A DNA stretch of 64,000 nucleotides. Source: Yamagishiella unicocca. Its lineage: Eukaryota > Chlorophyta > Chlorophyceae > Chlamydomonadales > Volvocaceae. The stretch is from NCBI GenBank assembly GCA_003116995.1, contig BDSL01000002.1:1510001-1574000 (forward strand), given 5' to 3'. A program made the translations under genes and the position numbers. The notes beneath the pieces are model-generated. The model searched no databases. It was not told where the DNA came from and saw only the letters and a list, made by a program, of their open reading frames with translations. Of the stretch, positions 3,001-42,992 are shown piece after piece (the first letter of the stretch is position 1; the number at the start of each line of letters is the position of its first letter).

Positions 3001-6000
3001 AAATTTGGTCAAGGCACTGCACCTGTAGGACAAGGCAAACCTGGGCAGTTAGCTCTTGCTCTGTGCTTTGCTAACCACCATGGCCATTTTCAGGTACCTC
3101 TTGCGGTTTGCTGCTGGCCCCAAAGGTACCATTTGGTGCATTTGGTCAAGGCACTGCACCTGTAGGACAAGGCAAACCTGGGCAGTTAGCTCCTTGCTCT
3201 GTGCTTTGCTAACCACCATGGCCATTTTCAGGTACCTCTTGCGGTTTGCTGCTGGCCCCAAAAACTTTCGGTATTGATTATAAATATCATTGAAAGATCA
3301 AAGCGCAAGTTTGGTGTCATTTGGTCAAGGCACTGCACCTGTAGGACAAGGCAAACCTGGGCAGTTAGCTCCTTGCTCTGTGCTTTGCTAACCACCATGG
3401 CCATTTTCAGGTACCTCTTGCGGTTTGCTGCTGGCCCCAAAACTTTCGGTATTGATTATAAATATCATCGCAATTTGGTCAAGGCACTGCACCTGTAGGA
3501 CAAGGCAAACCTGGGCAGTTAGCTTTGCTCTGTGCTTTGCTAACCACCATGGCCATTTTCAGGTACAAGGCACATGCACCTGTAGGACAAGGCAAACCTG
3601 GGCAGTTAGCTCCTTGCTCTGTGCTTTGCTAACCACCATGGCCATTTTCAGGTACCTCTTGCGGTTTGCTGCTGTTTCGGTATTGATTATAAATATCCTG
3701 GCCAAGGCGCAATTTAGCTATTTGGTACAAAACTTTCGGTATTGATTATAAATCATTGAAAGATCAAAGCGCAGTTTGGTGTCATTTGGTCAAGGCACTG
3801 CACCTGTAGGACAAGGCAAACCTGGGCAGTTAGCTCCTTGCTCTGTGCTTTGCTAACCACCATGGCCATTTTCAGGTACCTCTTGCGGTTTGCTGCTGGC
3901 CCCAAAAACATTTCATATTGATTAGGACAAGGCAAACCTGGGCAGTTAATATCATTGAAAGATCAAAAGATCAAAGCGCAAGTTTGGTGTCATTTGGTCA
4001 AGGCACTGCACCTGTAGGACAAGGCAAACCTGGGCAGTTAGCTCTTGCTCTGTGCTTTGCTAACCACCATGGCCATTTTCAGGTACCTCTTGCGGTTTGC
4101 TGCTGGCCCCAACTTTCGGTATTGATTATAAATATCATTGAAAGATCATTTGGTGTCATTTGGTCAAGGCACTGCACCTGTAGGACAAGGCAAACCTGGG
4201 CAGTTAGCTAACCACCATGGCCATTTTCAGGTACGCGGTTTGCTGCTGGCCCCAAAAACTTTCGGTATTGATTATAAATATCATTGAAAGATCAAAGCGC
4301 AGTTTGGTGTCATTTGGTCAAGGCACTGCACCTGTAGGACAAGGCAAACCTGGGCAGTTAGCTCTGTTGCTCTGCTTTGCTTTGCTAACCACCATGGCCA
4401 TTTTCAGGTACATTGAAAGATCAAAGCGCAATTTGGTCAAGGCACTGCACCTGTAGGACAAGGCAAACCTGGGCAGTTAGCTCTTGCTCTGTGCTTTGCT
4501 AACCACCATGGCCATTTTCAGGTACCTCTTGCGGTTTGCTGCTGGCCCCAAAAACTTATTATTATAAATATCATTGAAAGATCAAAGCGCAAGTTTGGTG
4601 TCATTTGGTCAAGGCACTGCACCTGTAGGACAAGGCAAACCTGGGCAGTTAGCTCTTGCTCTGTGCTTTGCTAACCACCATGGCCATTTTCAGGTACCTC
4701 TTGCGGTTTGCTGCTGGCCCCAACTTTCGGTACCAAAGCGCAGGTTTGGTGTCATTTGGTCAAGGCACTGCACCTGTAGGACAAGGCAAACCTGGGCAGT
4801 TAGCTCTTGCTCTGTGCTTTGCTAACCACCATGGCCATTTTCAGCCTCTTGCGGTTTGCTGCTGGCCCTTTCATTGGAAAGATCAAAGCGCAGGTTTGGT
4901 GTCATTTGGTCAAGGCACTGCACCTGTAGGACAAGGCAAACCTGGGCAGTTAGCTTTGCTCTGTGCTTTGCTAACCACCATGGCCATTTTCAGGTACCTC
5001 TTGCGGTTTGCTGCTGGCCTAAAGGTATTGATTATAAACATCATTGAAAGATCAAAGCGCAGGTTTGGTGTCATTTGGTCAAGGCACTGCACCTGTAGGA
5101 CAAGGCAAACCTGGGCAGTTAGCTTTGCTCTGTGCTTTGCTAACCACCATGGCCATTTTCAGGTACCTCTTGCGGTTTGCTGCTGGCCTAAAAACTTTCG
5201 GTATTGATTATAAATATCATTGAAAGATCAAAGCGCAGGTTTGGTGTCATTTGGTCAAGGCACTGCACCTGTAGGACAAGGCAAACCTGGGCAGTTAGCT
5301 CCTTGCTCTGTGCTTTGCTAACCACCATGGCCATTTTCAGGTACCTCTTGCGGTAAGGCACATTTGCCATGGTAGGACAAGGCAAACCTGGGCAGTTAGC
5401 TCGTTGCTCTGTGCTTTGCTAACCACCATGGCCATTTTCAGGTACCTCTTGCGGTTTGCTGCTGGCCCCAAAAACTTTCGGTATTGATTATAAATCATCA
5501 TTTGAAAGGCATCAAAGCGCAGTTAGCTTTGGTGTCATTTGGTCAAGGCACTTTGGTGTCATTTGGTCAAGGCTGCACCTGTAGGACAAGGCAAACCTGG
5601 GCAGTTAGCTCCTTGCTCTGGCCATTTTCAGCCTCTTGCGGTAACCACCATGGCCATTGTTCAGGCTACCTCTTGCGGTTTGCTGCTGGCCCAAAAATCA
5701 TTGAAAGATCAAAGCGTATTGATTATGGGCAGTTAATATCAGGTAAAAGATCAAAGCGCAAGTTTGGTGTCATTTGGTGGGCAGTTAGGCACTGCACCTG
5801 TTTGCTGCTGGCCCAAAAACTTTCGGTATTGGCAAACCTGGGGACAAGGCAAACCTGGGCAGTTAGCTCTCTGTGCTTTGCTGGCCATCAGCCTCTTGCT
5901 TTGCTGCTGGCCCAAAACTTTCGGTATTGATTATAAATATCATTGAAAGATCAAAGCGCAAGTTTGGTGTCATTTGGTCAAGGCACTGCACCTGTAGGAC

Positions 6001-9000
6001 AAGGCAAACCTGGGCAGTTAGCTCGTTGCTCTGTGCTTTGCTAACCACCATGGCCATTTTCAGGTGCTTTGCTGCTGGCCTTTCTATTGATTATAAAATC
6101 ATCATTTGGTGTCCATGCAAGGACAAGGCAAACCTGGGCAGTTAGCTAACCACCATTTTTCAGGTACAAGGCCATTCATTTGGTGTCATTTGGTCAAGGC
6201 ACTGCACCTGTAGGACAAGGCAAACCTGGGCAGTTAGCAAGGCCATTTTCAGGTGCGGTTTGCTGCTGGCCTAAGGCAAAAGATCAAAGCGCAAATTTGG
6301 TCATTGTAGGACAAGGCAAACCTGGGCAGTTAGCTTTGCTCTGTGCTTTGCTAACCACCATGGCCATTTTGAGTACCTCTTGCGGTTTGCTGCTGGCCCA
6401 AAAACTTTAATATTTATGATTATAACATCATTGAAAGATCAAAGCGCAAGTTTGGTGTCATTTGGTCAAGGCACTGCACCTGTAGGACAAGGCAAACCTG
6501 GGCAGTAGCTCATTCTCTGTGCTTTGCTAACACCATGGCCATTTTCAGGTACCTCTTGCGGTTTGCTGCTGGCCCAAAAACTTTCGGTATTGATTATAAA
6601 TACTTGAAAGATCAAAGCGCAAGTTTTGTGTCATTTGGTCAAGGCACTGCACCTGTAGGACCAAGGCAAACCTGGGCAGTTAGCTCGTTGCTCTGTGCTT
6701 TGCTAACCACCATGGCCATTTTGAGGTACCTCTTGCGGTTTGCTGCTGGCCCAAAAAACTTTCAATATTGATTATATACATATTCTTGGAAAGATCAAAG
6801 GCGGCAAGTTTGGTGTTCATTTTTGGTCAAGGGCACTGGCACCTGGTAGGACAAGGCCAAACCTGGGCAGTTAGGCTTCGTTGCTCTCTGTTTGCTAACC
6901 ACCATGGCCATTTTCAGATACCTCTTGCGGTTTGCTGCTGGCTCCAAAAACTTTCGGTATTGATTATAAACATCATTGAAAGATCAAAGCGCAGGTTTGG
7001 TGTCATTTGGTCAAGGCACTGCACCTGTAGGACAAGGCAAACCTGGGCAGTTAGCTTGTTGCTCTGTGCTTTGCTAACCACCATGGCCATTTTCAGATAC
7101 CTCTTGCGGTTTGCTGCTGGCCTAAGAACTTTCGGTTTATTATAAACATCATTGAAAGATCAAAGCGCAAGTTTGGTGTCATTTGGTCAAGGCACTGCAC
7201 CTGTAGGACAAGGCAAACCTGGGCAGTTAGCTCGTTGCTCTGTGCTTTGCTAACCACCATGGCCATTTTCAGATACCTCTTGCGGTTTGCTGCTGGCCTA
7301 AGAACTTTCGGTATTGATTATAAACATCATTGAAAGATCAAAGCGCAGGTTTGGTGTCATTTGGTCAAGGCACTGCACCTGTAGGACAAGGGCAAACCTG
7401 GGCAGTTAGCTCCTTGCTCTGTGCTTTGCTAACCACCATGGCCATTTTCAGTACCTCTTGCGGTTGCTGCTGGCCTAAGAACTTTCGGTAATGATTATAA
7501 ACATCATTGAAAGATCAAAGCGCAGTTTTGGTGTCATTTGGTCAAGGCACTGCACCTGTAGGACAAGGCAAAACCTGGGCCAGTTAGCTCGTTGCTCTGT
7601 GCTTTTGCATAACCACCATGGCCCATGTTGCAAGGCAAACCTCAGTTGCCGTTGCTCTGTGCTGCTGGCCTCAGATACCTCTTCGGTTGGTGTTAGAACT
7701 TTCGTTTTATATAATATCATTGAAAGATCAAAGCGCAAGTTTGGTGTCATTTGGTCAAGGCACTGCACCTGTAGGACAAGGCAAACCTGGGCAGTTAGCT
7801 CGTTGCTCTGTGCTTTGCTAACCACCATGGCCATTTTGAGGTACCTCTTGCGGTTTGCTGCTGGCCCCAAAAACTTTAATATTTATTGATTATAAATATC
7901 ATTGAAAGATCAAAGCGCAGGTTTGGTGTCATTTGGTCAAGGCACTGCACCTGTAGGACAAGGCAAACCTGGGCAGTTAGCTCGTTGCTCTGTGCTTTGC
8001 TAACCACCATGGCCATTTTCAGATACCTCTTGCGGTTTGCTGCTGGCCCCAAAAACTTTAATATTTATTGATTATAAATATCATTGAAAGATCAAAGCGC
8101 AAGTTTGGTGTCATTTGGTCAAGGCACTGCACCTGTAGGACAAGGCAAACCTGGGCAGTTAGCTCGTTGCTCTGTGCTTTGCTAACCACCATGGCCATTT
8201 TCAGGTACCTCTTGCGGTTTGCTGCTGGCTCCAAAAACTTTCGGTATTGATTATAAACATCATTGAAAGATCAAAGCGCAGGTTTGGTGTCATTTGGTCA
8301 AGGCACTGCACCTGTAGGACAAGGCAAACCTGGGCAGTTAGCTCGTTGCTCTGTGCTTTGCTAACCACCATGGCCATTTTCAGATACCTCTTGCGGTTTG
8401 CTGCTGGCCTAAGAACTTTCGGTGTTTATTATAAATATCATTGAAAGATCAAAGCGCAAGTTTGGTGTCATTTGGTCAAGGCACTGCACCTGTAGGACAA
8501 GGCAAACCTGGGCAGTTAGCTCGTTGCTCTGTGCTTTGCTAACCACCATGGCCATTTTCAGGTACCTCTTGCGGTTTGCTGCTGGCTCCAAAAACTTTCG
8601 GTGTTTATTATAAATATCATTTAAAGATCAAAGCGCAGGTTTGGTGTCATTTGGTCAAGGCACTGCACCTGTAGGACAAGGCAAACCTGGGCAGTTAGCT
8701 CGTTGCTCTGTGCTTTGCTAACCACCATGGCCATTTTCAGGTACCTCTTGCGGTTTGCTGCTGGCTCTAAGAACTTTCGGTATTGATTATAAACATCATT
8801 GAAAGATCAAAGCGCAGGTTTGGTGTCGTTTGGTCAAGGCACTGCACCTGTAGGACAAGGCAAACCTGGGCAGTTAGCTTGTTGCTCTGTGCTTTGCTAA
8901 CCACCATGGCCATTTTCAGATACCTCTTGCGGTTTGCTGCTGGCCCCAACAACTTTCGGTATTGATTATAAATATCATTGAAAGATCAAAGCGCAAGTTT

Positions 9001-12000
9001 GGTGTCATTTGGTCAAGGCACTGCACCTGTAGGACAAGGCAAACCTGGGCAGTTAGCTCGTTGCTCTGTGCTTTGCTAACCACCATGGCCATTTTGAGGT
9101 ACCTCTTGCGGTTTGCTGCTGGCCCCAAAAACTTTAATATTTATTGATTATAAACATCATTGAAAGATCAAAGCGCAGGTTTGGTGTCGTTTGGTCAAGG
9201 CACTGCACCTGTAGGACAAGGCAAACCTGGGCAGTTAGCTCCTTGCTCTGTGCTTTGCTAACCACCATGGCCATTTTCAGATACCTCTTGCGGTTTGCTG
9301 CTGGCCCCAACAACTTTCGGTATTGATTATAAATATCATTGAAAGATCAAAGCGCAAGTTTGGTGTCATTTGGTCAAGGCACTGCACCTGTAGGACAAGG
9401 CAAACCTGGGCAGTTAGCTCGTTGCTCTGTGCTTTGCTAACCACCATGGCCATTTTGAGGTACCTCTTGCGGTTTGCTGCTGGCCCCAAAAACTTTAATA
9501 TTTATTGATTATAAATATTATTGAAAGATCAAAGCGCAAGTTTGGTGTCATTTGGTCAAGGCACTGCACCTGTAGGACAAGGCAAACCTGGGCAGTTAGC
9601 TCGTTGCTCTGTGCTTTGCTAACCACCATGGCCATTTTCAGGTACCTCTTGCGGTTTGCTGCTGGCTCCAAAACTTTCGGTATGGATTATAAATATCATT
9701 TAAAGATCAAAGCGCAGGTTTGGTGTCATTTGGTCAAGGCACTGCACCTGTAGGACAAGGCAAACCTGGGCAGTAGCTCGTTGCTCTGTGCTTTGCTAAC
9801 CACCATGGCCATTTTCAGATACCTCTTGCGGTTTGCTGCTGGCTCCAAAAACTTTCGGTATTGATTATAAATATCATTTAAAGATCAAAGCGCAAGTTCG
9901 GTGCCATTTGGTCAAGGCACTGCACCTGTAGGACAAGGCAAACCTGGGCAGTAGCTCGTTGCTCTGTGCTTTGCTAACCACCATGGCCATTTTCAGGTAC
10001 CTCTTGCGGTTTGCTGCTGGCTCCAAAAACTTTCGGTGTTTATTATAAATATCATTTAAAGATCAAAGCGCAAGTTCGGTGCCATTTGGTCAAGGCACTG
10101 CACCTGTAGGACAAGGCAAACCTGGGCAGTTAGCTTGTTGCTCTGTGCTTTGCTAACCACCATGGCCATTTTCAGATACCTCTTGCGGTTTGCTGCTGGC
10201 CCCAACAACTTTCGGTATTGATTATAAATATCATTGAAAGATCAAAGCGCAAGTTTGGTGTCATTTGGTCAAGGCACTGCACCTGTAGGACAAGGCAAAC
10301 CTGGGCAGTTAGCTCGTTGCTCTGTGCTTTGCTAACCACCATGGCCATTTTGAGGTACCTCTTGCGGTTTGCTGCTGGCCCCAAAAACTTTAATATTTAT
10401 TGATTATAAATATCATTGAAAGATCAAAGCGCAAGTTTGGTGTCATTTGGTCAAGGCACTGCACCTGTAGGACAAGGCAAACCTGGGCAGTTAGCTCGTT
10501 GCTCTGTGCTTTGCTAACCACCATGGCCATTTTCAGGTACCTCTTGCGGTTTGCTGCTGGCTCCAAAAACTTTCGGTATTGATTATAAACATCATTGAAA
10601 GATCAAAGCGCAGGTTTGGTGTCATTTGGTCAAGGCACTGCACCTGTAGGACAAGGCAAACCTGGGCAGTAGCTCGTTGCTCTGTGCTTTGCTAACCACC
10701 ATGGCCATTTTCAGGTACCTCTTGCGGTTTGCTGCTGGCTCCAAAAACTTTCGGTGTTTATTATAAATATCATTTAAAGATCAAAGCGCAAGTTCGGTGC
10801 CATTTGGTCAAGGCACTGCACCTGTAGGACAAGGCAAACCTGGGCAGTTAGCTTGTTGCTCTGTGCTTTGCTAACCACCATGGCCATTTTCAGATACCTC
10901 TTGCGGTTTGCTGCTGGCCTAAGAACTTTCGGTATTGATTATAAACATCATTGAAAGATCAAAGCGCAGGTTTGGTGTCATTTGGTCAAGGCACTGCACC
11001 TGTAGGACAAGGCAAACCTGGGCAGTAGCTCGTTGCTCTGTGCTTTGCTAACCACCATGGCCATTTTCAGGTACCTCTTGCGGTTTGCTGCTGGCTCCAA
11101 AAACTTTCGGTGTTTATTATAAATATCATTTAAAGATCAAAGCGCAAGTTCGGTGCCATTTGGTCAAGGCACTGCACCTGTAGGACAAGGCAAACCTGGG
11201 CAGTTAGCTTGTTGCTCTGTGCTTTGCTAACCACCATGGCCATTTTCAGATACCTCTTGCGGTTTGCTGCTGGCCTAAGAACTTTCGGTATTGATTATAA
11301 ACATCATTGAAAGATCAAAGCGCAGGTTTGGTGTCATTTGGTCAAGGCACTGCACCTGTAGGACAAGGCAAACCTGGGCAGTTAGCTTGTTGCTCTGTGC
11401 TTTGCTAACCACCATGGCCATTTTCAGGTACCTCTTGCGGTTTGCTGCTGGCCTAAGAACTTTCGGTGTTTATTATAAATATCATTTAAAGATCAAAGTT
11501 CAAGTTCGGTGCCATTTGGTCAAGGCACTGCACCTGTAGGACAAGGCAAACCTGGGCAGTTAGCTCCTTGCTCTGTGCTTTGCTAACCACCATGGCCATT
11601 TCCAGGTACCTCTTGCGGTTTGCTGCTGGCTCCAAAAACTTTCGGTATTGATTATAAACATCATTGAAAGATCAAAGCGCAGGTTTGGTGTCATTTGGTC
11701 AAGGCACTGCACCTGTAGGACAAGGCAAACCTGGGCAGTTAGCTTGTTGCTCTGTGCTTTGCTAACCACCATGGCCATTTTCAGGTACCTCTTGCGGTTT
11801 GCTGCTGGCCTAAGAACTTTCGGTGTTTATTATAAATATCATTTAAAGATCAAAGTTCAAGTTCGGTGCCATTTGGTCAAGGCACTGCACCTGTAGGACA
11901 AGGCAAACCTGGGCAGTTAGCTCCTTGCTCTGTGCTTTGCTAACCACCATGGCCATTTCCAGGTACCTCTTGCGGTTTGCTGCTGGCTCCAAAAACTTTC

Positions 12001-14156
12001 GGTGTTTATTATAAATATCATTTAAAGATCAAAGCGCAAGTTCGGTGCCATTTGGTCAAGGCACTGCACCTGTAGGACAAGGCAAACCTGGGCAGTTAGC
12101 TTGTTGCTCTGTGCTTTGCTAACCACCATGGCCATTTTCAGATACCTCTTGCGGTTTGCTGCTGGCCTAAGAACTTTCGGTATTGATTATAAACATCATT
12201 GAAAGATCAAAGCGCAGGTTTGGTGTCATTTGGTCAAGGCACTGCACCTGTAGGACAAGGCAAACCTGGGCAGTTAGCTTGTTGCTTTGTGCTTTGCTAA
12301 CCACCATGGCCATTTTGAGGTACCTCTTGCGGTTTGCTGCTGGCCCCAAAAACTTTAATATTTATTGATTATAAACATCATTGAAAGATCAAAGCGCAGG
12401 TTTGGTGTCGTTTGGTCAAGGCACTGCACCTGTAGGACAAGGCAAACCTGGGCAGTTAGCTCCTTGCTCTGTGCTTTGCTAACCACCATGGCCATTTTCA
12501 GATACCTCTTGCGGTTTGCTGCTGGCCCCAACAACTTTCGGTATTGATTATAAATATCATTGAAAGATCAAAGCGCAAGTTTGGTGTCATTTGGTCAAGG
12601 CACTGCACCTGTAGGACAAGGCAAACCTGGGCAGTTAGCTCGTTGCTCTGTGCTTTGCTAACCACCATGGCCATTTTGAGGTACCTCTTGCGGTTTGCTG
12701 CTGGCCCCAAAAACTTTAATATTTATTGATTATAAATATCATTGAAAGATCAAAGCGCAAGTTTGGTGTCATTTGGTCAAGGCACTGCACCTGTAGGACA
12801 AGGCAAACCTGGGCAGTTAGCTCGTTGCTCTGTGCTTTGCTAACCACCATGGCCATTTTCAGGTACCTCTTGCGGTTTGCTGCTGGCTCCAAAAACTTTC
12901 GGTATTGATTATAAACATCATTGAAAGATCAAAGCGCAGGTTTGGTGTCATTTGGTCAAGGCACTGCACCTGTAGGACAAGGCAAACCTGGGCAGTAGCT
13001 CGTTGCTCTGTGCTTTGCTAACCACCATGGCCATTTTCAGGTACCTCTTGCGGTTTGCTGCTGGCTCCAAAAACTTTCGGTGTTTATTATAAATATCATT
13101 TAAAGATCAAAGCGCAAGTTCGGTGCCATTTGGTCAAGGCACTGCACCTGTAGGACAAGGCAAACCTGGGCAGTTAGCTTGTTGCTCTGTGCTTTGCTAA
13201 CCACCATGGCCATTTTCAGATACCTCTTGCGGTTTGCTGCTGGCCTAAGAACTTTCGGTATTGATTATAAACATCATTGAAAGATCAAAGCGCAGGTTTG
13301 GTGTCATTTGGTCAAGGCACTGCACCTGTAGGACAAGGCAAACCTGGGCAGTAGCTCGTTGCTCTGTGCTTTGCTAACCACCATGGCCATTTTCAGGTAC
13401 CTCTTGCGGTTTGCTGCTGGCTCCAAAAACTTTCGGTGTTTATTATAAAAATATCATTTAAAGATCAAAGCGCAAGTTCGGTGCCATTTGGTCAAGGCAC
13501 TGCACCTGTAGGACAAGGCAAACCTGGGCAGTTAGCTTGTTGCTCTGTGCTTTGCTAACCACCATGGCCATTTTCAGGTACCTTTTGCGGTTTGCTGCTG
13601 GCTCCAAAAACTTTCGGTGTTTATTATAAATATCATTTAAAGATCAAAGCGCAAGTTCGGTGCCATTTGGTCAAGGCACTGCACCTGTAGGACAAGGCAA
13701 ACCTGGGCAGTTAGCTTGTTGCTCTGTGCTTTGCTAACCACCATGGCCATTTTCAGATACCTCTTGCGGTTTGCTGCTGGCCTAAGAACTTTCGGTATTG
13801 ATTATAAACATCATTGAAAGATCAAAGCGCAGGTTTGGTGTCATTTGGTCAAGGCACTGCACCTGTAGGACAAGGCAAACCTGGGCAGTTAGCTTGTTGC
13901 TCTGTGCTTTGCTAACCACCATGGCCATTTTCAGGTACCTCTTGCGGTTTGCTGCTGGCCTAAGAACTTTCGGTGTTTATTATAAATATCATTTAAAGAT
14001 CAAAGTTCAAGTTCGGTGCCATTTGGTCAAGGCACTGCACCTGTAGGACAAGGCAAACCTGGGCAGTTAGCTCCTTGCTCTGTGCTTTGCTAACCACCAT
14101 GGCCATTTCCAGGTACCTCTTGCGGTTTGCTGCTGGCTCCAAAAACTTTCGGTATT
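1..14156. repeat. Satellite array 1, ~179-bp tandem monomer (about 79 copies)
   Basis: Head-to-tail copies of a monomer of 178-186 bp fill the whole interval; successive equivalent positions are 8068, 8247, then 9144, 9323. Each monomer carries the landmarks TTGATTATAAATATCATTGA, GGTCAAGGCACTGCACCTGT, CTAACCACCATGGCCATTTT and GCGGTTTGCTGCTGGC. Variants differ in the linker (AATATTTATTGATTAT, GGTATTGATTAT or GGTGTTTATTAT) and in TTGAAAG versus TTTAAAG. Each monomer is open in one frame on each strand for about 60 codons, but the plus-strand frame has no conserved ATG at its start, so I treat it as non-coding. It runs off the left edge. It ends inside a monomer at 14156, where unrelated coding-like sequence begins. 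A centromeric, pericentromeric or subtelomeric satellite is possible but not shown. Confidence 0.97.
2800..7700. repeat. Scrambled core of satellite array 1
   Basis: Monomers here are truncated, internally duplicated or joined at short microhomologies, for example around 2820-2880, 3560-3600, 3700-3760, 5500-5880, 6100-6300 and 7610-7700. Pieces of 15-60 bp from different parts of the monomer are spliced together. The flanking stretches (1-2800 and 7860-14156) contain mostly full-length regular monomers. Confidence 0.8.
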
Positions 14157-17100: not shown

Positions 17101-18283
17101 CACGGACGCTACTTCAGCGGACACCTCGGCGGAAGCCGCAGCGACGGCGGTGGCGGCGGCGGATGAGGCGGCGCAGCAGCTGGCGGACGCGTATGAGGAG
17201 ATGGCGGGTCTGACTCGGCGGCTGGAGGAGGCGGAATCGGCGCTGGCGGAGGCGGGAGAGCGGTTGTTGGACGCGAAGGAGGAGAATGCGCTGCTCACAG
17301 CTCGTTGCGCGGAGTCGGAGGCCCAGGTGGAGGCTGCCAGGAAGGACCTTGCGGCAGCGCAGGAGGAGGTGCTGCAGGCGGCCTCGGCGGCGGACAAGCG
17401 CTGCACGGAGCTGCTCGAGCAGGCCGCCAGCGTCGCCGCCGCCGCCGCCACGGAGGCGGCGGCGGGAGCTGCCGGCGGCAGTCGCAGCCGCCGCGGCAGC
17501 GACGGTAGCGGCTGGCGGCGGCGCCGTCCCGGGAGGTCAGAAGCCGCCCCCGCAGCCGGTGCGGCGACCGTCCCGAGATACGGCCGAGGGCTTTATGACC
17601 GCCACGGCGCCGGCGGCGGCCGCCACCGCTGACGCTGTACGGCGGGCCGTCCGCGACGACGCTCGCGGCGTGAGCGCCATCCTTGCCGGCGCACACGAGC
17701 GAGCGGTCGGTCTGGCGGCTAGGCTCAGCCGGTCTCAGAACCTCATGGCGGAGCTGGAGATGGTGAGGAGGGGAGCGAGAACCAGTAGGGCTGGACCGGG
17801 GGCGAGATAGAGGTGGCGGCTGAGGCCATGGCGCTGGCAGGTTCTGCAACTCGGAAGGCGGCTTTACCCTGGGCTCTGGCGTGAATGCGCGAGGGGTTGC
17901 ACTGAGGACGCATAATTCTAGGAGCATCGACAGCCACACCGCCTAGCACTCCCTAGCATTGCTGGCGTGTGTTTGGTGACTGCCGGGATTCGACGGACGT
18001 GCCGATGCCGCCGGCCATGGAAATGCCGTTTCAGGTCCTTTTCAGGAACCATGGCCATTTCGTTCGTTCCACGCGTCTCTGTATTACTAATGCCTCTCCC
18101 CGGAGCTGCTCCTCAACACAGCCCATCTCGCCTACGAACGTGCGAACGCGCAGGCCACGGCCGCCGCTACCTCGTCCTCGTCCTCCTCGGGCAGCAAGGG
18201 CAGCGCACAGCTGCCCGAGTTTTCGGAGCTACTGCAGTGCGCAGTGGCGCTGGAGGGGCTCATGGTGGTGCTGGAGGCTGGAG

Positions 18284-18294
18284 TCAACCAGCAG
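18284..18294 (+). repeat. Target-site duplication, left copy
   Basis: TCAACCAGCAG lies in the golgin exon directly before the retroelement. An identical copy follows the element at 22864-22874. Removing the element and one copy restores an in-frame exon reading VNQQQQDLHAK up to a donor at 22896. Confidence 0.9.
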
Positions 18295-18303
18295 CGCTCA
18301 AGC

Positions 18304-19115
18304 TGCAGCACGACTATGCGGGACCCCAGCCCATGCACCGCCTTGCAGGCGCCAGCTGCTACTACGTAACCCTAAAACAGCTATCGCTGGCAAGGGAGAG
18401 CGGGATCGCCATCACGGCCGCCGGTCAGCCCTATGCCCCAGAAATCAACACCCTATATGAGGCGGTCCAGCTAGCGAGGGGTCGGGCCGACGCCCAACTC
18501 CCACTGCCCTATCGGTATGTTATGCCCCTAGTGGAGCTCGGCCTAGATCTGCAATCTCTGGTGGACCAGAACACCGGGGCCCACCTCATCACCAGTGCCG
18601 AACTGCAGAACCTCTTCATCAACAAAACCAGGATCCAACGCCGGCACAAAGTTGCGCTCAACCGTCTTAGCCTTGCGCTCAGCGCACACTGTGATCCCCT
18701 TGAACGGGGCAAAGACATGGACCCCAAACGCTACGCCAGCGCGGCACCCCTAGGGGACAGGCGCCTCCGGCGGATACCAGACGTGCCCGCATTTGCTGGC
18801 TTGCTATCCAAATCGCGCGTGCCCAACGCTGCCGTCATGCCCTCTATGGACTCACATACCCTGCGCACCCGCCGCGGGGTAGTGCCAGGAGAGCACGGGG
18901 GCAGGCGCCTGCAAATTGCCCCAATGCCAGAGGCCACGGGAGCACAATACCCCCGACATGGCATCGCCGTAAACCCGACTCCGAACGGGCCCCGCCCGAG
19001 GTACCGACCACCAGGACCCACCATCGCCTCAACGAGAGACCTCCCGGCGGGGGCGCAAGCGCAAAGGTGTTACAGCCCGGCAGGAAGAACTCATCGCCAA
19101 AAGCACGCGGTGTGA
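18304..19115 (+). pseudogene. Retroelement ORF, 5' part (frame 0)
   Basis: An open frame enters from the golgin exon and continues through the element to a stop at 19113-19115. It contains conserved-looking helical stretches such as LPYRYVMPLVELGLDLQSLV and RRHKVALNRLSLAL, then low-complexity Pro/Arg sequence. I do not recognise a domain; it could be the region immediately after the RT palm/thumb of the full-length element. The frame overlaps the open frame of the next part: in that frame the last upstream stop is at 18970-18972 and it is open from 18973. A single indel between about 18973 and 19115 would join the two parts into one polyprotein. Confidence 0.6.
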
Positions 19116-22044
19116 TAACAATAAGACACGCACGGCCAAGGCCAGAATCCATGATGTACCGGCACTTGTGCAGCTCCATGCCGAAGAAGAAGGGAAACCT
19201 GCAACACAGTGGGCCCGCCTGTGGGCCGGCACCGACGACGATGTGGCCGCTTTCTGGCGGGCGGTCCTGGAAGATATGCGGCCCCATGTCAAAAGCCTGG
19301 GGCGAAGGCAACAGCCGACACAGACGCACGCACCGCAATTACGACTTACCGACCAGGACGGTGATGAGGGAAGATGGGACGCTGACCCTATCCACGAACC
19401 CACCGACGCAGAGGGCATCCCACTCCTAAACACGGCAGACATACATGAGGCCCTGCCCCCACTAGCTGAAGCAGCGACTCCGCAGGCAGCCCGCCCGCTG
19501 GGCGAGCCATGGGAGCCATGGCGCGTCGCAAGGGCGCAAATCCTGGCAGACCAAATACCCTGGCCGGGCATGGGCGACACGACGGCAGAACACCAACTTA
19601 CATATGACCTGTACCGCGACACAGAAGTCATCAGTGAGGTCGTAGCCGGCCCATTCACAGTCAGGCATACCACTACAGCGGCCGCCACCAAGAAGGCTCG
19701 TAAGCAAGCGAACCGGAAGAGGCGGCACGCTGATAATCACCCGGAGCGGCAGGATGACGACCCGGCAACCACCCAGGGCGCCAGCAGCCACGAAACCCAA
19801 TACACAGTCGCATGGCCCCACTCGATCATCCCGCTCTCTGTCCTGCGGGCATACGTTCGACAAGGATACACCTACGAAAGCGTCCAGGAAGTGCAGGACG
19901 AGCTAGGACCGCACCTCGACAAATATTTCCGCAAGGTCACCTGGAAAACCTCCAACATGGCACTCTGGAACCTGGAAAGGGACCCGAATTTCCCCGCGGC
20001 ACTGCAGCGATACAAGGCCGCCCGCAACACACCAAGAGACCCCAGGCCAACCCGCCCGGCCCCAGCGAGAGACCAATCTCTCACCAACGCCCAAAAGCAG
20101 GGCCGGTGGGACCCGCCTGACGAACACGCTGCGACCCGGAAGCGCACCCTACGGGGCAACACCACCATCAACACTATATCCCAGAACCCTCACTTGGATG
20201 TGTATCCCCCAGGCCGGTACACCATCCAGTTGGGGACGCGTGCACCCTTAGCTACAAGCCTTGTAGCCGGCACGGAATACACAGCGCACGTGTACGACCC
20301 GCGTGGGGTGTGCGTGGGCCGCCTCACCGCAGCCCGGCTACACCTCCTCCGTGCACGCTGGCAGCATATGAAGGACCGGACGCCCGAGCTCCACTGCAGC
20401 CTCACCGCCCAGGGCGGATTCGAAGAGGATGTAGCCCGCCTCCTGCACCGAAGTCAAGCGGGGGCAGACGGCAGGAAAGGGAAGTCTACACCCCGCTCGG
20501 AGACCACGCTCAACGTCTCCCTAAGCGGGCACCTAGTGAGCGCCCTGCGCAACCTCCAGGCTGGACATGTGACGGAGCGGTTTGCCTCCCCACTCAACAG
20601 CCTGGGCACGGCCGACTGCTACTTCAGTCGCCACAGCGAAGACCAGCTTTTCGGTGCATGCACAGAAGGCTACAGCCACCGCTTCACCGGCCTATCCATG
20701 GCACACCCGGACCCTACCCCAGAAAGTGCCAAACGAGCCCTTGGCTGGGCCATCGCCAGTGCTGAAACAGTGGCAACTTCCCCTGAACCCACCGTCACCC
20801 TTATCGCCCTCCCATATGACCGAACGGGCCCGTACACGCACCTCACCGAGAGCGCACTAGTCCACCGCCTCGCCCAGCTGTGGGACGGCGACCTCTCCAG
20901 CCTAACCACTGGTGATGGCACAGCCTCCAGCGCCCCGCGATATGCTCGTGGAATCGACATCCTCTTAGTGGCCAATAGCGCAGGCTTAGAAGCCTTCAAT
21001 AATTGCGCATGGAAACAACTCCGCACGACCCTAATGCAAAGCGGGGACGGCGTTAAACAACTCGCACCCACGCGTATAGAGCAAAAGCAAGGAGAATCGG
21101 ACAAGCACTGGTGTTGCTGGAGAGCCCGGAAGAGGGCTAAGGAACTACGTGCGCAGCCGCCCAGCGCGCCGACACTCACGGTATGCATCGCGGCAACCGA
21201 CGCGCACGAACGCCCGATTCGGACGGACTTCCCCGCCACGCTGGGCCTCCAATATGACGCTGACAGCATCACCTGGACCGATGGCAGCTGCCTTAAGCCC
21301 GACGAGGAAGGAGGGCCGCAGCGCACTGGGGCCGCCTACTACAAAGCTGGGAAGACAACCCACGTAAACCCCAACGGTATCGACTATACGAACACTATCC
21401 AAAGAGCTGAACTAGCAGCCATCAGGGCCGCTCTCGCCGACCCAGAGGTGCAGGAACAGTACCGGGCTACTATTGCTACCGATAGCATTGCCTCACTCTA
21501 CCTAATAAGGCGTGCAATTAATGCGCCAGAAAAGCTTCACATTTCCAAGCACAGAGCACTACTACTATCGATAGTCGACCTGCTCCGAAACTACGCCGAG
21601 GCCGGCACTAAGATACACCTGCTGCACGTACGTTCTCATACTGGGCTCCACGGAAATGACATGGCAGACGCTGGAGCCACGGCTACGGCCTCCGGAGAAG
21701 TCGCTGCTGATATAATAGAGGAAGCTGAGAACGAGGGATACCGCCACATCCACTGGGCGGCACGCAGCAGGGACACCTGTTTTGTGTCGGACCTGAATAG
21801 GGGACTCCTAAAGCATCTCCCGTCAGAGATGTACGGCGGTTACACCAACGACCCCGAGTCAACCGCACGCTGGAGGGAGGCTGCCCCCGAACTCTCCGCC
21901 CGATTCAGCAACGCCTATCTCACCACAAACCGTATGGGCCACTGGCTCGCAAAGCAGGTCCTGTACGCGCGCTATGGGTACCTTCACAATGCCCGACTCA
22001 AACAGCTCTACGGCCGAGGCGGGGACGGTAAATGCCCCCTCTGA
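18973..22044 (+). pseudogene. Retroelement ORF: PCIF1-like MTase domain, RNase H, start of zinc knuckle
   Basis: Residue numbers count from the codon at 19168. Residues about 470-605 begin with ERFASPLN and contain FGA and EPTVTLIALPY. This order matches the catalytic region of PCIF1 (cap m6Am methyltransferase family). The position of its NPPF motif reads AHPDPT, so the catalytic motif is probably degenerate. Residues 701-840 form an RNase H with the acidic set Asp705 (in TDGS), Glu748 (in RAEL), Asp772 (in ATDS) and Asp831 (in HGNDMAD), preceded by VRSHTG. The frame ends at TGA 22042-22044, exactly where the second Cys of the knuckle C-x2-C is expected. No reverse transcriptase is present. 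The protein would serve retrotransposition; the role of the methyltransferase-like part is unknown. Confidence 0.75.
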
Positions 22045-22743
22045 CGCCACAGCCGGGAAGGCCCCACAACTGACTCCGGCAGTCACATCCTCGGGGGCTG
22101 CCGTCACAAAACTATGGTAGGGGCGTACATTAACCGACATAACAGCGCCGTACGGGCAGTCGCTGCATGCCTGCACAACGGCAACAAAGGAGGAGGCCTT
22201 ATGGTCATGGATGCAGGAAGGGCGGAAGAGCTCCCTGAATACTGTGCGGGAAACAGGCCACCGCTCTGGATGTTCACGGAAACCGACCGACGAGACCCCA
22301 ACGTCAGCAAAATGCGCCCGGACATCATGTTCATCCCTAACCTACCCGGAAACAGAATCCCAAGAAACGCTACTACCTGCCGATTGCCTGGACCCAAGAA
22401 CCAATACCCTGTGTACATCATTGAGGTACGCTACACCAGCGACCTGAACCACTCGGACAAATGTACGGAGAAAACCATTCAGCACAAGAAACTTTCCGAC
22501 GCCCTGGAGCGAGCGGGCTGGACGGTGCACTACACCAGGAATGAGGTAATTACCCTAGGTGCCACCGGCACCATCCCCAATACGGTCAAGCCACTACTCC
22601 AAACCCTGGGAGCCAGCGCTGAACAAGCCAACAAATGCTGCCTACACCTCCACCAACATGCGGTGGTTAGCGCCGGCGCCATCATCAAGAACCGCCGAGT
22701 GCTGGAAAACGGACCGCAGCAGGGAGCCAGGGGGGTGGGCTAA
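22045..22743 (+). pseudogene. Retroelement ORF, C-terminal restriction-like endonuclease
   Basis: This is the same frame as the preceding segment after the in-frame TGA. It begins with the rest of the CCHC knuckle (HILGGC; His and Cys present). It then shows the restriction-like endonuclease signature: MRPDIMFIP, about 30 residues, YIIEVRYTSD, and a downstream AEK/QHKKL-like helix (KTIQHKKLSDALERAGW) ending near LGATGTIPN. In site-specific and RandI-type non-LTR elements this nuclease nicks the target DNA to prime reverse transcription. The stop is at 22741-22743, followed by about 100 bp of 3' UTR and the (ATT)n tail. Confidence 0.8.
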
Positions 22744-22844
22744 GGGTAACTTTTTGACCCCACAGGTGGCGCGAGCGTATAGGGTGTACTAACACCCTCA
22801 CCGCCCCGCCCCCGTAATACATGCTAGGCCTAGTGCCAGCGTAC

Positions 22845-22863
22845 TCATTATTATTATTATTAT
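22845..22863 (+). repeat. (ATT)n 3' tail of the retroelement
   Basis: About six ATT repeats sit immediately before the right target-site duplication. A microsatellite tail is the usual 3' end of several non-LTR clades. Confidence 0.85.
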
Positions 22864-22874
22864 TCAACCAGCAG
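22864..22874 (+). repeat. Target-site duplication, right copy
   Basis: TCAACCAGCAG is identical to 18284-18294. The golgin exon resumes at 22875. Confidence 0.9.
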
Positions 22875-24127
22875 CAGCAGGACCTGCACGCCAAGGTTTG
22901 TCCGATGGGTCGCCGGATTCAGGAGATACCGAGCGGGCATTGGGGGCATTAGAGGCCAGGTTATGCCTCTGGCAAGCGCAATCCCGTTTTGTCCCTCCCT
23001 CCCTCTGGAGTGTACGATGCCCCCTATGACTAACCTCTGATTAACCTCACTACCACCACCGACGCGCCGCACCGCAGGCAGAGCAGGTGACCCAGATGTC
23101 CAGCCTGCAGGCCCGCGCCACCACCCTGGAGCAGCAGAACCAGCTGCTGCAGCAGGAGCTGCGGCGCTGCGAGACGGTGGCGGGCAGCGGCGGCGTGGGC
23201 GGCACCAGCATCGCGGCCGCCGCCGGCAATAATGGTGCCGCCGACGAGGGCGGCAGCATCGCTGTGCAGCTGCTGCCCCGAATAGGAGTTCCGGCAGCTG
23301 GGGGCAGCAGGCCGGTGAGTCGCGCATGTGTGCATGCGTGCGCAAAAAGGCTGGCGGCTTACACCATTGTGGTGATTGCACCATTATTGCTCCCTCCTCG
23401 TTCCTGTCAGGCCATGAGGGCCCCAGTTAAGCAGGGGGAGCGGCGTTTCCTCTGCAGGGCCGGGCAAGCGCCGTCATGGGGAAATCGTAGACTGCGCAGG
23501 ACAGTCCAACTTTTCAGGAAGCGCATACGCGCAGTACCGCCAAGCAAAATGGGTATATGGCCCCATGGTCCGCTCCTTGCTGTCACCCAGGAGCGTGCAC
23601 CTACATGCCGCAACGCCCGACCACTTTTTTCCTGTTGCGGCTAACTGTCGCCAATCCTCCCGTCCCTCCTCACCCTCCCCTGCTGCAGACCGCCGCAGCG
23701 CGCCACCGCGCAGCGCCATTCGACATCGAGGCAGGCTGGGGCGGTGGCGATGCCTCCACCGCCGCAGCTGGCGGCTCCGCCGTTCCTGTCTCCGTCGGCG
23801 CAGGCGGCGACCCTCTGTACGACAGTGACGTGGAGGACGCCACCGGCGCCGTGGCGGCTTATGCTAACGGCAGCAATCGTCGGCTCAACCTGGACTTCCG
23901 GCCGCTACTGTCGTCGCCTCTGATGCGCGGCGCGCACCCGCACGTACGGCAGGCGATCGACGTATGTGGACCAGGCCAGCGTGTTCGCAGGCCACTGGCT
24001 CACGAGCCGTCCGACGCTGCGCCTGGGCGCGCTGACGTATGTGCTGGTGCTGCACCTGATTGCGCTCACGCTGTTCTCGTTGGGCCGGCACTGTGGACCC
24101 GCCGCTGGGCGCCTGAGTGCGCCGTGA

Positions 24128-29974: not shown

Positions 29975-32900
29975 CCTCAGCAAACCCAGGACCAACGCTC
30001 AAGACTTCCGATCGATCAAGACCGTTTCCACCCCTCCATCTACCCCTCCCCTCCGTCCCCTCTCCTCCTCCTCTTCCTGGGTTGTGTTTCGGTTTGGGTT
30101 TCGGAACCCAAGACCTACGCTCAAGACCGACCTACGCTCAAGACCTACGATCAAGGCCGTTTCCACCCCGCCCGCCCTCCCTCGACCCCTCCCCTCACCT
30201 CCTCCTACCTCTTCCTGGGTTGGGATTATTTGGTTTCGGTTCCAGACTGTCACTGGGTGTTGCAACACCCAAGGACGGCACTTTGCATTTTCTTTACGAG
30301 GAGCATCGGACTCTGACACCCACATTTTCGCCCCCCCCTAATGCAGGTTGCGCTACGAACCGAGCGAAACACCTCGTTGAACCCAAGACCTACGCTCAAG
30401 ACCGACCTACGCTCAAGACCTACGCTCAAGACCGTTTCCACCCCCCCCGCCCTCCCTCGACCCCTCCCCTTACCTCCTCCTACCTCTTCCTGGGTTGGGA
30501 TTTGGTTTCGGTTCCAGACCTAGCAAGTGTTGCAACACCCAAGGACGGCACTTTGCATTTCCTTTACGAGGAGCATCGGACTCTGACACCCACATTCCCC
30601 CCCTAATGCAGGTTGTCGCTACGAACCGAGCGAAACACCTCGTTGAACCCAAGACCTACGCTCAAGACCGACCTACGATCAAGACCTACGCTCAAGACCG
30701 TTTCCACCCCGCCCGCCCTCCCTCGACCCCTCCCCTTACCTCCTCCTACCTCTTCCTGGGTTGGGATTTGGTTTCGGTTCCAGACCTAGCAAGTGTTGCA
30801 ACACCCAAGGACGGCACTTTGCATTTCCTTTACGAGGAGCATCGGACTCTGACACCCACATTCCCCCCCCTAATGCAGGTTGTCGCTACGAACCGAGCGA
30901 AACACCTCGTTGAACCCAAGACCTACGCTCAAGACCGACCTACGCTCAAGACCTACGCTCAAGACCGTTTCCACCCCCCCGCCCTCCCTCGACCCCTCCC
31001 CTTACCTCCTCCTACCTCTTCCTGGGTTGGGATTTGGTTTTGGTTCCAGACCCAGCAAGTGTTGCAACACCCAAGGACGGCACTTGCTTGGCATTTTCTT
31101 TACGAGGAGCATCGGACTCTGACACCCACATTTTCGCCCTCCCTCTAATGCAGGTTGCGCTACGAACCGAGCGAAACACCTCGTTGACCCCAAGACCTAC
31201 GCTCAAGACCGACCTACGATCAAGACCTACGATCAAGACCGTTTCCACCCCGCCCGCCCTCCCTCGACCCCTCCCCTCACCTCCTCCTACCTCTTCCTGG
31301 GTTGGGATTTGGTTTCGGATCCAGACTGTCACTGGGTGTTGCAACACCCAAGGACGGCACTTGGCATTTTCTTTACGAGGAACATCGGACCCTAACACCC
31401 ACATTTTCGCCCTCCCCCTAATGCAGGTTGTCGCTACGAACCGAGCGAAACACCTCGTTGAACCCAAGACCTACGCTCAAGACCGACCTACGATCAAGAC
31501 CTACGCTCAAGACCGTTTCCACCCCGCCCGCCCTCCCTCGACCCCTCCCCTTACCTCCTCCTACCTCTTCCTGGGTTGGGATTTGGTTTCGGTTCCAGAC
31601 CTAGCAAGTGTTGCAACACCCAAGGACGGCACTTTGCATTTCCTTTACGAGGAGCATCGGACTCTGACACCCACATTCCCCCCCCTAATGCAGGTTGTCG
31701 CTACGAACCGAGCGAAACACCTCGTTGAACCCAAGACCTACGCTCAAGACCGACCTACGCTCAAGACCTACGCTCAAGACCGTTTCCACCCCCCCGCCCT
31801 CCCTCGACCCCTCCCCTTACCTCCTCCTACCTCTTCCTGGGTTGGGATTTGGTTTCGGTTCCAGACCCAGCAAGTGTTGCAACACCCAAGGACGGCACTT
31901 GCTTGGCATTTTCTTTACGAGGAACATCGGACTCTGACACCCACATTTTCGCCCTCCCTCTAATGCAGGTTGCGCTACGAACCGAGCGAAACACCTCGTT
32001 GACCCCAAGACCTACGCTCAAGACCGACCTACGATCAAGACCTACGATCAAGACCGTTTCCACCCCGCCCGCCCTCCCTCGACCCCTCCCCTCACCTCCT
32101 CCTACCTCTTCCTGGGTTGGGATTTGGTTTCGGATCCAGACTGTCACTGGTGTTGCAACACCCAAGGACGGCACTTGGCATTTTCTTTACGAGGAACATC
32201 GGACCCTAACACCCACATTTTCGCCCTCCCCCTAATGCAGGTTGTCGCTACGAACCGAGCGAAACACCTCGTTGACCCAAGACCTACGCTCAAGACCGAC
32301 CTACGATCAAGACCTACGATCAAGACCGTTTCCACCCCGCCCGCCCTCCCTCGACCCCTCCCCTCACCTCCTCCTACCTCTTCCTGGGTTGGGATTTGGT
32401 TTCGGATCCAGACTGTCACTGGTGTTGCAACACCCAAGGACGGCACTTGGCATTTTCTTTACGAGGAACATCGGACCCTAACACCCACATTTTCGCCCTC
32501 CCCCTAATGCAGGTTGTCGCTACGAACCGAGCGAAACACCTCGTTGAACCCAAGACCTACGCTCAAGACCGACCTACGCTCAAGACCTACGCTCAAGACC
32601 GTTTCCACCCCGCCCGCCTCCCTCGACCCCTCCCCTCACCTCCTCCACCTCTTCCTGGGTTGGGATTTGGTTTCGGTTCCAGACCCAGCAAGTGTTGCAA
32701 CACCCAAGGACGGCACTTGCTGGCATTTCTTTACGAGGACATCGGACTCTGACACCCACATTTCGCCCCCCCTAATGCAGGTTGCGCTACGAACCGAGCG
32801 AAACACCTCGTTGAACCCAAGACCTACGCTCAAGACCGACCTACGATCAAGACCTACGATCAAGACCGTTTCCCCCCGCCCGCCCTCCCTCGACCCCTCC

Positions 32901-35430
32901 CCTCACCTCCTCCTACCTCTTCCTGGGTTGGGATTTGGTTTCGGTTCCAGACCTAGCAAGTGTTGCAACACCCAAGGACGGCACTTTGCATTTCCTTTAC
33001 GAGGAGCATCGGACTCTGACACCCACATTCCCCCCCCTAATGCAGGTTGTCGCTACGAACCGAGCGAAACACCTCGTTGAACCCAAGACCTACGCTCAAG
33101 ACCGACCTACGCTCAAGACCTACGCTCAAGACCGTTTCCACCCCCCCCCCCTCCCTCGACCCCTCCCTTACCTCCTCCTACCTCTTCCTGGGTTGGGATT
33201 TGGTTTCGGTTCCAGACCCAGCAAGTGTTGCAACACCCAAGGACGGCACTTGCTTGGCATTTTCTTTACGAGGAACATCGGACTCTGACACCCACATTTT
33301 CGCCCTCCCTCTAATGCAGGTTGCGCTACGAACCGAGCGAAACACCTCGTTGACCCCAAGACCTACGCTCAAGACCGACCTACGATCAAGACCTACGATC
33401 AAGACCGTTTCCACCCCGCCCGCCCTCCCTCGACCCCTCCCCTCACCTCCTCCTACCTCTTCCTGGGTTCGGATTTGGTTTCGGATCCAGACTGTCACTG
33501 GGTGTTACAACACCCAAGGACGGCACTTGGCATTTTCTTTACGAGGAACATCGGACTCTTAACACCCACATTTTCGCCCTCCCCCTAATGCAGGTTGTCG
33601 CTACGAACCGAGCGAAACACCTCGTTGAACCCAAGACCTACGCTCAAGACCGACCTACGCTCAAGACCTACGCTCAAGACCGTTTCCACCCCCCCGCCCT
33701 CCCTCGACCCCTCCCCTCACCTCCTCCTACCTCTTCCTGGGTTGGGATTTGGTTTCGGTTCCAGACCCAGCAAGTGTTGCAACACCCAAGGACGGCACTT
33801 GCTTGGCATTTTCTTTACGAGGAACATCGGACTACTCTGACACCCACATTTTTGCCCTCCCTCTAATGCAGGTTGCGCTACGAACCGAGCGAAACACCTC
33901 GTTGACCCCAAGACCTACGCTCAAGACCGACCTACGATCAAGACCTACGCTCAAGACCGTTTCCTCCCCGCCCGCCCTCCCTCGACCCCTCCCCTCACCT
34001 CCTCCTACCTCTTCCTGGGTTGGGATTTGGTTTCGGATCCAGACTGTCACTGGGTGTTGCAACACCCAAGGACAGCACTTGGCATTTTCTTTACGAGGAG
34101 CATCGGACTCTGACACCCACATTTTCGCCCCCCCCCTAATGCAGGTTGCGCTACGAACCGAGCGAAACACCTCGTTGAACCCAAGACCTACGCTCAAGAC
34201 CGACCTACGCTCAAGACCTACGCTCAAGACCGTTTCCACCCCCCCGCCCTCCCTCGACCCCTCCCCTTACCTCCTCCCACCTCTTCCTGGGTTCGGATTT
34301 GGTTTCGGTTCCAGACCTAGCAAGTGTTGCAACACCCAAGGACGGCACTTGGCATTTCCTTTACGAGGAGCATCGGACTCTGACACCCACATTCCCCCCC
34401 CCTAATGCAGGTTGTCGCTACGAACCGAGCGAAACACCTCGTTGAACCCAAGACCTACGCTCAAGACCGACCTACGCTCAAGACCTACGCTCAAGACCGT
34501 TTCCACCCCCCCCGCCCTCCCTCGACCCCTCCCCTTACCTCCTCCTACCTCTTCCTGGGTTGGGATTTGGTTTCGGTTCCAGACCCAGCAAGTGTTGCAA
34601 CACCCAAGGACGGCACTTGCTTGGCATTTTCTTTACGAGGAACATCGGACTCTGACACCCACATTTTCGCCCTCCCCCTAATGCAGGTTGCGCTACGAAC
34701 CGAGCGAAACACCTCGTTGACCCCAAGACCTACGCTCAAGACCGACCTACGCTCAAGACCTACGCTCAAGACCGTTTCCACCCCCCCGCCCTCCCTCGAC
34801 CCCTCCCCTCACCTCCTCCTACCTCTTCCTGGGTTGGGATTTGGTTTCGGTTCCAGACCCAGCAAGTGTTGCAACACCCAAGGACGGCACTTGCTTGGCA
34901 TTTTCTTTACGAGGAACATCGGACTCTGACACCCACATTTTCGCCCTCCCTCTAATGCAGGTTGCGCTACGAACCGAGCGAAACACCTCGTTGACCCCAA
35001 GACCTACGCTCAAGACCGACCTACGATCAAGACCTACGCTCAAGACCGTTTCCACCCCGCCCGCCCTCCCTCGACCCCTCCCCTCACCTCCTCCTACCTC
35101 TTCCTGGGTTCGGATTTGGTTTCGGATCCAGACTGTCACTGGGTGTTACAACACCCAAGGACGGCACTTGGCATTTTCTTTACGAGGAACATCGGACTCT
35201 TAACACCCACATTTTCGCCCTCCCCCTAATGCAGGTTGCGCTACGAACCGAGCGAAACACCTCGTTGAACCCAAGACCTACGCTCAAGACCGACCTACGC
35301 TCAAGACCGTTTCCACCCCCCCCGCCCTCCCTCGACCCCTCCCCGCATGCACCTCCGCCTACCTCGGCTCTTCCCGGGTTGGGTTTCGGTCGGTTCCGGT
35401 TGCGGATTGTCACTGGATGTTGCTAAGGCC
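29975..35430. repeat. Satellite array 2, ~271-bp tandem monomer (about 19-20 copies)
   Basis: The landmark AATGCAGGTTG recurs at about 30340, 30605, 30871, 31147, 31420, 31687 and so on to 35228, giving a period of 264-277 bp. Each monomer contains GACCTACGCTCAAGACCG sub-repeats, a C-rich tract, TCTTCCTGGGTTGGGATTTG, a palindrome around TGTTGCAACA, and TTTACGAGGA. The first and last copies are diverged. Monomers are nearly free of stop codons in some frames and so give open frames up to 309 codons, but with repeat-derived composition, several competing frames and indels. I do not call them genes. Confidence 0.95.
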
Positions 35431-39722: not shown

Positions 39723-39785
39723 GCTAGCAGCTGCCGCCGTCGTCGTACGCTAGCTGTCGCAGCTGCTGGCCAGCAGACGCCCACC

Positions 39786-41329: not shown

Positions 41330-41392
41330 GCTAGCAGCTGCCGCCGTCGTCGTACGCTAGCTGTCGCAGCTGCTGGCCAGCAGACGCCCACC

Positions 41393-42929: not shown

Positions 42930-42992
42930 GCTAGCAGCTGCCGCCGTCGTCGTACGCTAGCTGTCGCAGCTGCTGGCCAGCAGACGCCCACC

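Follow-up and report, generated by a model that had tools for sequence, protein, structure and literature searches.

Closest described systems

Dualen/RandI elements are non-long terminal repeat (non-LTR) retrotransposons reportedly described by Kojima and Fujiwara in 2005, in an account not known to include a PCIF1-like domain, and a cysteine protease with a C/H/NN signature is one of their features. The window analysed here—64,000 nucleotides of the volvocacean alga Yamagishiella unicocca (contig BDSL01000002.1, positions 1,510,001 to 1,574,000, from an assembly of 133 Mb in 1415 contigs, G000)—holds a copy of a Dualen-like long interspersed nuclear element (LINE) whose polyprotein includes a domain resembling the methyltransferase PCIF1/CAPAM. 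We regard it as belonging to a LINE group already described, to which a PCIF1-like domain has been added. The domain was probably captured by the element and, in the branch to which the window copy belongs, would now be an RNA- or adenosine-binding pseudo-methyltransferase. Dualen is described as the LINE group possessing both endonuclease types (PMC4640811, PMC3636483), and Dualen families are reported from every core-Reinhardtinia species compared (PMC8226300).

PCIF1 (CAPAM) is a cap-specific N6-methyltransferase acting on the first adenosine of animal messenger RNAs. It has been described as the only N6,2′-O-dimethyladenosine methyltransferase; its residues F479-P494 form the active-site loop, which starts with FASPLN, and N553-C557 the catalytic loop (PMC10544176). 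It is presented as alone in its group and was omitted from a tree of N6-methyltransferases for its long branch (PMC8868631). The corresponding Pfam family, PF12237, is misleadingly named PCIF1_WW: it represents the CAPAM-like methyltransferase and not the WW domain, and the same report supplies the sole published relative outside PCIF1's group that we met, a choanoflagellate fusion (PMC7641849). Among the literature matches listed, none describes in its excerpted text a PCIF1-type domain in a retrotransposon (Iyer et al. may mention such domains), and in the excerpts of a paper on Dualen and other non-LTR elements the word methyltransferase occurs solely in the reference list (PMC3636483).

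A PCIF1-like domain between reverse transcriptase and RNase H

The initial annotation had recognised, at 20572-20990 and upstream of RNase H, a block of PCIF1-like motifs in a retroelement polyprotein. The motifs—ERFASPLN, FGA, AHPDP, and, downstream of the last, the hydrophobic strand EPTVTLIALPY—do lie in one forward-strand frame, RNase H follows them, and alignment with PCIF1 stretches gives the order and spacing to the catalytic loop that PCIF1 has (Table 1). The claimed interval falls inside a larger domain, with the PCIF1-aligned part extending beyond it on both sides. In a 10-row alignment, ERFASPLN is invariant at E, R, A, S, L, and N, as is DQLFGA at F, G, and A (10 of 10 rows); in a wider set, one protein (P0012) reads EHVASPLN.

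Taken alone, the window sequence scores 13.4 bits against PCIF1_WW (E 0.059; gathering cut-off 31.1), and a protein search with residues 440-760 of the 1023-residue frame yielded no match at E ≤ 0.001 in 7998 scored candidates. A profile built from six local copies (A1) did identify 10 proteins, with E values of 1.7e-49 to 1.6e-8 (database size 5.8 billion; 7997 candidates scored), nine of which match PCIF1_WW at E ≤ 0.01, five of them above the curated cut-off. Two, P0005 and P0006, carry PCIF1_WW and RNase_H in a single protein, ordered as in the window. Pairwise, the window matches P0004 at E 7e-24 (32% over 253 columns) and P0005 at E 2e-18. PF12237 is precomputed for eight of these 10 proteins, and jointly with RNase_H for two relatives; the pairing is therefore visible in databases. 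Eighteen proteins came from a second profile search (A4), and 16 of these (P0011-P0026) had not appeared in the first. Ten of the newcomers were scanned with Pfam, of which eight match PCIF1_WW at E ≤ 0.01 and four exceed the cut-off. In all, 26 relatives were found and 20 scanned, and nine (P0004, P0005, P0008-P0014) reach 31.1 bits.

Searched against the PDB with hmmsearch at E ≤ 10, A4 recovers PCIF1 alone, from zebrafish (7.3e-6) and from human (6.4e-5); the alignment covers most of the catalytic domain and sets ANPPF opposite aNPeY. With hhalign, A4 matches two PCIF1 stretches at 96.5% probability (E 8.6e-10), against 0.05% for an RNase H control, whereas A1 alone reaches 22.9% (E 9e-4 as a single comparison) with the catalytic loop out of register; PDB searches with the single sequence or A1 gave unrelated weak matches only, PCIF1 not among them. 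The anticipated profile match to PCIF1 thus becomes significant when relatives are added; neither the window by itself nor its local family reaches it. Structure prediction of the window domain, for which a Rossmann-like fold had been expected, gives a Rossmann-type methyltransferase closest to PCIF1, the fold alignment beginning at human residue 417. In PCIF1, a helical domain precedes that of the methyltransferase. Neither check refuted the initial interpretation, and the resemblance to PCIF1 is more than chance.

Several searches had negative outcomes. No relatives were found in scans of viral_contigs or genome_contigs, and NCBIfam contributed only one weak match, to RNase HI, and one match due to chance. 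No WW domain matched at E ≤ 10 in the window frame, or at E ≤ 0.1 in the 3333 residues scanned of a longer copy, L009 (a short N-terminal piece lies beyond the residues scanned). A genome search with PF12237 for a host PCIF1 gave only two matches, both copies of a second LINE family: a weak test, which also missed the window family itself and which an intron-split gene could escape.

The domain's place in the element is seen in L009, whose frame is open for at least 3333 codons and at both ends. Pfam identifies an Exo_endo_phos endonuclease of apurinic/apyrimidinic endonuclease (APE) type at residues 1016-1238 (30.4 bits, cut-off 24.5), which lies outside the truncated window copy, then reverse transcriptase (RT; RVT_1, 1711-1992, E 3.7e-33) and RNase_H (3110-3250, E 6.3e-13), an RT-then-RNase H order shared with Dualen/RandI. 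ERFASPLN occurs at residue 2880, between RT and RNase H, and some 700 residues separate RT from the PCIF1-like domain. Two LINE families with this domain coexist in the genome: family A, comprising the window copy and 35 other aligned copies at 97.8-99.4% identity, and the older-looking family B (L013, L014, L015, L016, L018), which is 41-52% identical to A over four compared stretches of L013 and L014. In family B, Pfam gives a Josephin-type protease match (L013:5072-10000, reverse strand; E 4.1e-5, 23.9 bits, below the curated cut-off of 26). By domain make-up, the element appears to be built as Dualen is, and we class it as Dualen-like on that basis. By eye, L009 has a C...H...NNLL stretch at residue 602 with hydrophobic stretches ahead of it; no Pfam Josephin match is listed for this copy.

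Catalytic loop across relatives

The loop was aligned in 20 rows (the window, L013, and 18 of the 26 proteins) together with the two PCIF1 stretches. P0001, P0018, P0020, and P0022-P0026 were left out, six of them for want of intact loop coverage; P0018 and P0023 are visibly NPEY. RNase H marks the window, P0005, and P0006 as members of a LINE, and L013 is placed by its position in one. By eye, P0013, P0017, and P0019 have YTDGS/YSDGS after the domain and P0004 has the preceding flank in common; the remaining rows are assigned through kinship.

NPPF, whose conservation or variation the initial annotation had proposed to examine, occurs in none of the 20 rows; a variant, NPEY, is found in 14, and the window and its nearest kin have HP[DE]P. 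At the first place (Asn553 in PCIF1), N occurs 14 times, H five, and E once; the third, Pro in PCIF1, is never Pro and is acidic in 19 rows (S in one); the fourth, Phe in PCIF1, is Y in 15, P in three, and C and H in one each. Loss of the third Pro probably predates the separation of these 20 rows. In the tree, the window, L013, P0002, and P0003 form one cluster (support 98) and the NPEY rows another (76). P0006 (AHPEC) and P0007 (TEFEY) attach to the NPEY side at a low 58, and PCIF1 sits at the end of a very long branch. By eye, P0026 (397 residues, NPEY side) carries upstream of the domain a PHD-like C..C...C..C..H..C...C..C cluster that has no Pfam name.

Decay of a single copy was considered as the cause of AHPDP and rejected: all 36 aligned family-A copies have it, and H also occupies the first loop place in five family-B rows. 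The suggestion that the domain is probably inactive, or its fold used differently, fits the absence of NPPF from all 20 rows.

Selection and proposed role

Changes were counted in the best-scoring 36 of 78 matches (family-A copies: the window and 35 others, some partial or with small insertions). Within the domain, synonymous changes number 25 (213 sites) and nonsynonymous ones 18 (624 sites), a ratio per site (pN/pS) of 0.25 (Fisher p 5e-6); in the linker that follows, the respective counts are five (49 sites) and eight (152 sites), with a ratio of 0.52. In seven copies, the domain gives 0.10 and RNase H 0.15; in four, RT gives 0.10 and APE 0.19; and the stretch between RT and the domain gives 0.20 in five. 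These counts point to a domain under constraint within the range of the neighbouring enzymes, and selection seems still to preserve it despite its rewritten catalytic motif.

We infer the following course, with moderate confidence. A PCIF1/CAPAM-type class I N6-adenosine methyltransferase domain would have been captured by a dual-endonuclease LINE and seated between RT and RNase H, and in the window branch the catalytic loop would have changed from NPPF to HP[DE]P. Because of this loop, the domain in that branch is most likely no longer an N6-methyltransferase, and marking of the element's own RNA or DNA—a role raised in the initial annotation—is unlikely there, since the motif's Asn and aromatic are both gone. 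Selection would have kept it as a binding module. Its likeliest role would be to grip an adenosine, or the element's own RNA in single-stranded form, perhaps together with S-adenosylmethionine bound in the retained pocket, during the copying and clearing of that RNA by the adjacent RT and RNase H. METTL14 is a precedent for a retained inactive methyltransferase. In the NPEY branch, weak or altered N6 activity may persist.

Some observations weigh against a binding-only role. The window model has a mean predicted local distance difference test score of 70.9, a middling confidence. The pN/pS counts come from young copies with few changes and use no tree, and RT and the domain were counted on differing sets of copies, the 36-copy value for the domain having no RT counterpart. 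The NPEY branch retains Asn, Pro, and the aromatic, so catalysis may survive there. Finally, His at the first place is by itself no proof of inactivity, because the motif of N6-methyladenosine enzymes is given as [DNSH]PP[YFW] (PMC7927073).

Alternative explanations

The strongest competitor, itself rather unlikely, holds that the domain still methylates, through a non-canonical loop: the Asn, the Pro backbone carbonyl, and the aromatic of NPEY would act on the element's RNA or complementary DNA (cDNA), an activity that the window branch would have lost or altered. N-P-x-Y is kept in 14 of 20 rows, including one from Pyramimonas (P0010); the first and fourth places are those mutated to kill PCIF1 (PMC10544176); and Erm/KsgA-type enzymes are reported to function with N-I/L-P-Y (PMC8868631), so the motif tolerates change at the second place. 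Set against this are the absence of the third Pro from every row, with an acid there in all but one; the behaviour of METTL16, in which changing N, PP (to AA), or F of the motif is reported to abolish methylation (PMC7927073); and the lack of both Asn and aromatic in the window branch. Slightly less probable again is a broader scenario in which NPEY LINEs are widespread and methylate their own transcript or cDNA, while the window branch supplies a pseudo-enzyme that binds S-adenosylmethionine or adenosine and licenses or times target-primed reverse transcription.

That the acid at the third place marks a new chemistry, or a different bound group, common to these versions is distinctly improbable. 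In its favour, 19 of 20 rows, drawn from both branches, are acidic at this place and none has Pro; against it, the acid could equally mark a binding site. A decaying passenger domain without function would account for the lost catalytic motif and the broken window copy, yet it is very improbable given the pN/pS values for the domain and an identity between families A and B of 46.8% over the domain-holding stretch, compared with 51.5% over the later RT and downstream stretch and 40.9% at the N terminus. Chance resemblance to PCIF1, for which the sub-threshold Pfam score of the window and the weak hhalign result of its local family might speak, is scarcely credible and was rejected, since intermediate-sequence profiles and fold comparison agree and the RNase H control does not match.

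The window copy and its surroundings

The window copy is 5′-truncated and broken, and is young, as judged by its 97.9%-98.7% identity (blastn) to four longer copies: L009 (with L010), L011, L012, and L019. Its 5′ end is the first base in common with other copies and adjoins the left target-site duplication. A frame shift is visible by eye near 18973, and the stop codon at 22042-22044 interrupts a frame that in L011 runs open through the same place.

Table 1. Coordinates of the LINE copy and its parts, in window positions.
Feature	Position	Strand	Basis
PCIF1/CAPAM-like methyltransferase-fold domain	20212-21048	+	Part aligned with PCIF1 in fold comparison
ERFASPLN, matching the first residues of the PCIF1 active-site loop (F479-P494)	20575-20598	+	Alignment
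DQLFGA, counterpart of PCIF1 D..FG	20641-20658	+	Aligned with PCIF1
AHPDP at the PCIF1 ANPPF position (catalytic loop), without Asn or aromatic	20701-20715	+	Alignment
ILLVANSAG, equivalent to VLFLQNDPG, a late strand of PCIF1	20959-20985	+	Alignments
LINE copy, Dualen-like non-LTR retrotransposon, 5′-truncated, broken	18296-22863	+	blastn against longer copies
Target-site duplication, left copy, 12 bp (TCAACCAGCAGC)	18284-18295	.	Read from sequence; adjoins shared start
Target-site duplication, right copy, 12 bp (TCAACCAGCAGC)	22864-22875	.	Read from sequence
(ATT)n tail, element end	22847-22863	+	Read from sequence
Open frame covering the post-RT region, the PCIF1-like domain, RNase H, and the beginning of the zinc finger (1023 codons)	18973-22044	+	Open reading frame list
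RNase H	21265-21687	+	Pfam RNase_H, E 2.7e-13
Zinc finger, C..C...H...C type, cut by the stop at 22042-22044	22033-22107	+	Read directly; L011 open through this place
Probable PD-(D/E)XK restriction-like endonuclease core (RPD ... IEV)	22312-22440	+	By eye; weak Pfam Uma2, E 0.2

The LINE copy appears to interrupt a coiled-coil host gene. By eye, the flanks (18230-18295 and 22864-22905) read as an exon, the frame ...LEGLMVVLEAGVNQQ continuing past the duplication as QQDLHAK, which is followed by a GT splice-donor-like site at the LINE's 3′ flank.

Tandem repeats occur elsewhere in the window. Satellite arrays of ~178 bp occupy positions 1-14156 in two main rows of 19.6 and 43.6 copies, with a smaller patch at 46156-46795; L015, where a family-B fragment is also present, has similar units. 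An array of a 274-bp unit (30104-35308; 19.2 copies, 93% match) contains short CAAGACCTACGCT repeats. Blocks of a 57-bp repeat recur within 38316-43349 every ~1600 bases (at 38316, 39923, 41523, and 43123), which suggests a 1.6-kb higher-order tandem.

Comparison with known systems

A divergent, mobile, and apparently selected PCIF1-fold branch in a LINE suggests that RNA-modification machinery has been put to use by retroelements. It makes possible a direct test of what the domain contributes to retrotransposition once catalysis is gone, and its NPEY and HP[DE]P loops offer a ready set of natural catalytic-site variants.

With Dualen/RandI, the element has in common that a single frame (L009) encodes an endonuclease of APE type, RT, and RNase H; the sub-threshold Josephin-like match in L013 of family B and the probable restriction-like endonuclease core read by eye may be further common features. 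The likeness is one of domain make-up, and the element departs from the group, whose published description is not known to include a PCIF1-like domain, in carrying one. With PCIF1/CAPAM, the domain shares the predicted methyltransferase fold, FASPLN, D..FG, the order and spacing to the catalytic loop, and the late strands; it differs in having HP[DE]P in the window and NPEY in most relatives where PCIF1 has NPPF, in sitting within a polyprotein, and in that PCIF1 has an N-terminal WW domain and none was found in the part of the LINE scanned.

Choanoflagellate fusions of a CAPAM-like domain with Tudor and DCD domains likewise place a PCIF1-type domain outside PCIF1, in a multidomain protein; as reported, however, they are cellular proteins and not retroelements, and the likeness drawn here is one of domain make-up (PMC7641849). 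Drosophila Pcif1 is reported to be catalytic-dead, with NPPF changed to NPPH (PMC9479742; see also Franco 2023, cited by title); it too retains the PCIF1 domain after loss of the catalytic motif, but it is a host gene and its motif change is another one. Retrotransposons with captured cytosine methyltransferases, reported from dinoflagellates and charophytes (PMC5890265), provide the parallel for capture of a nucleic-acid methyltransferase by a retroelement, whereas their enzymes act at C5 and do not have the PCIF1-type fold.
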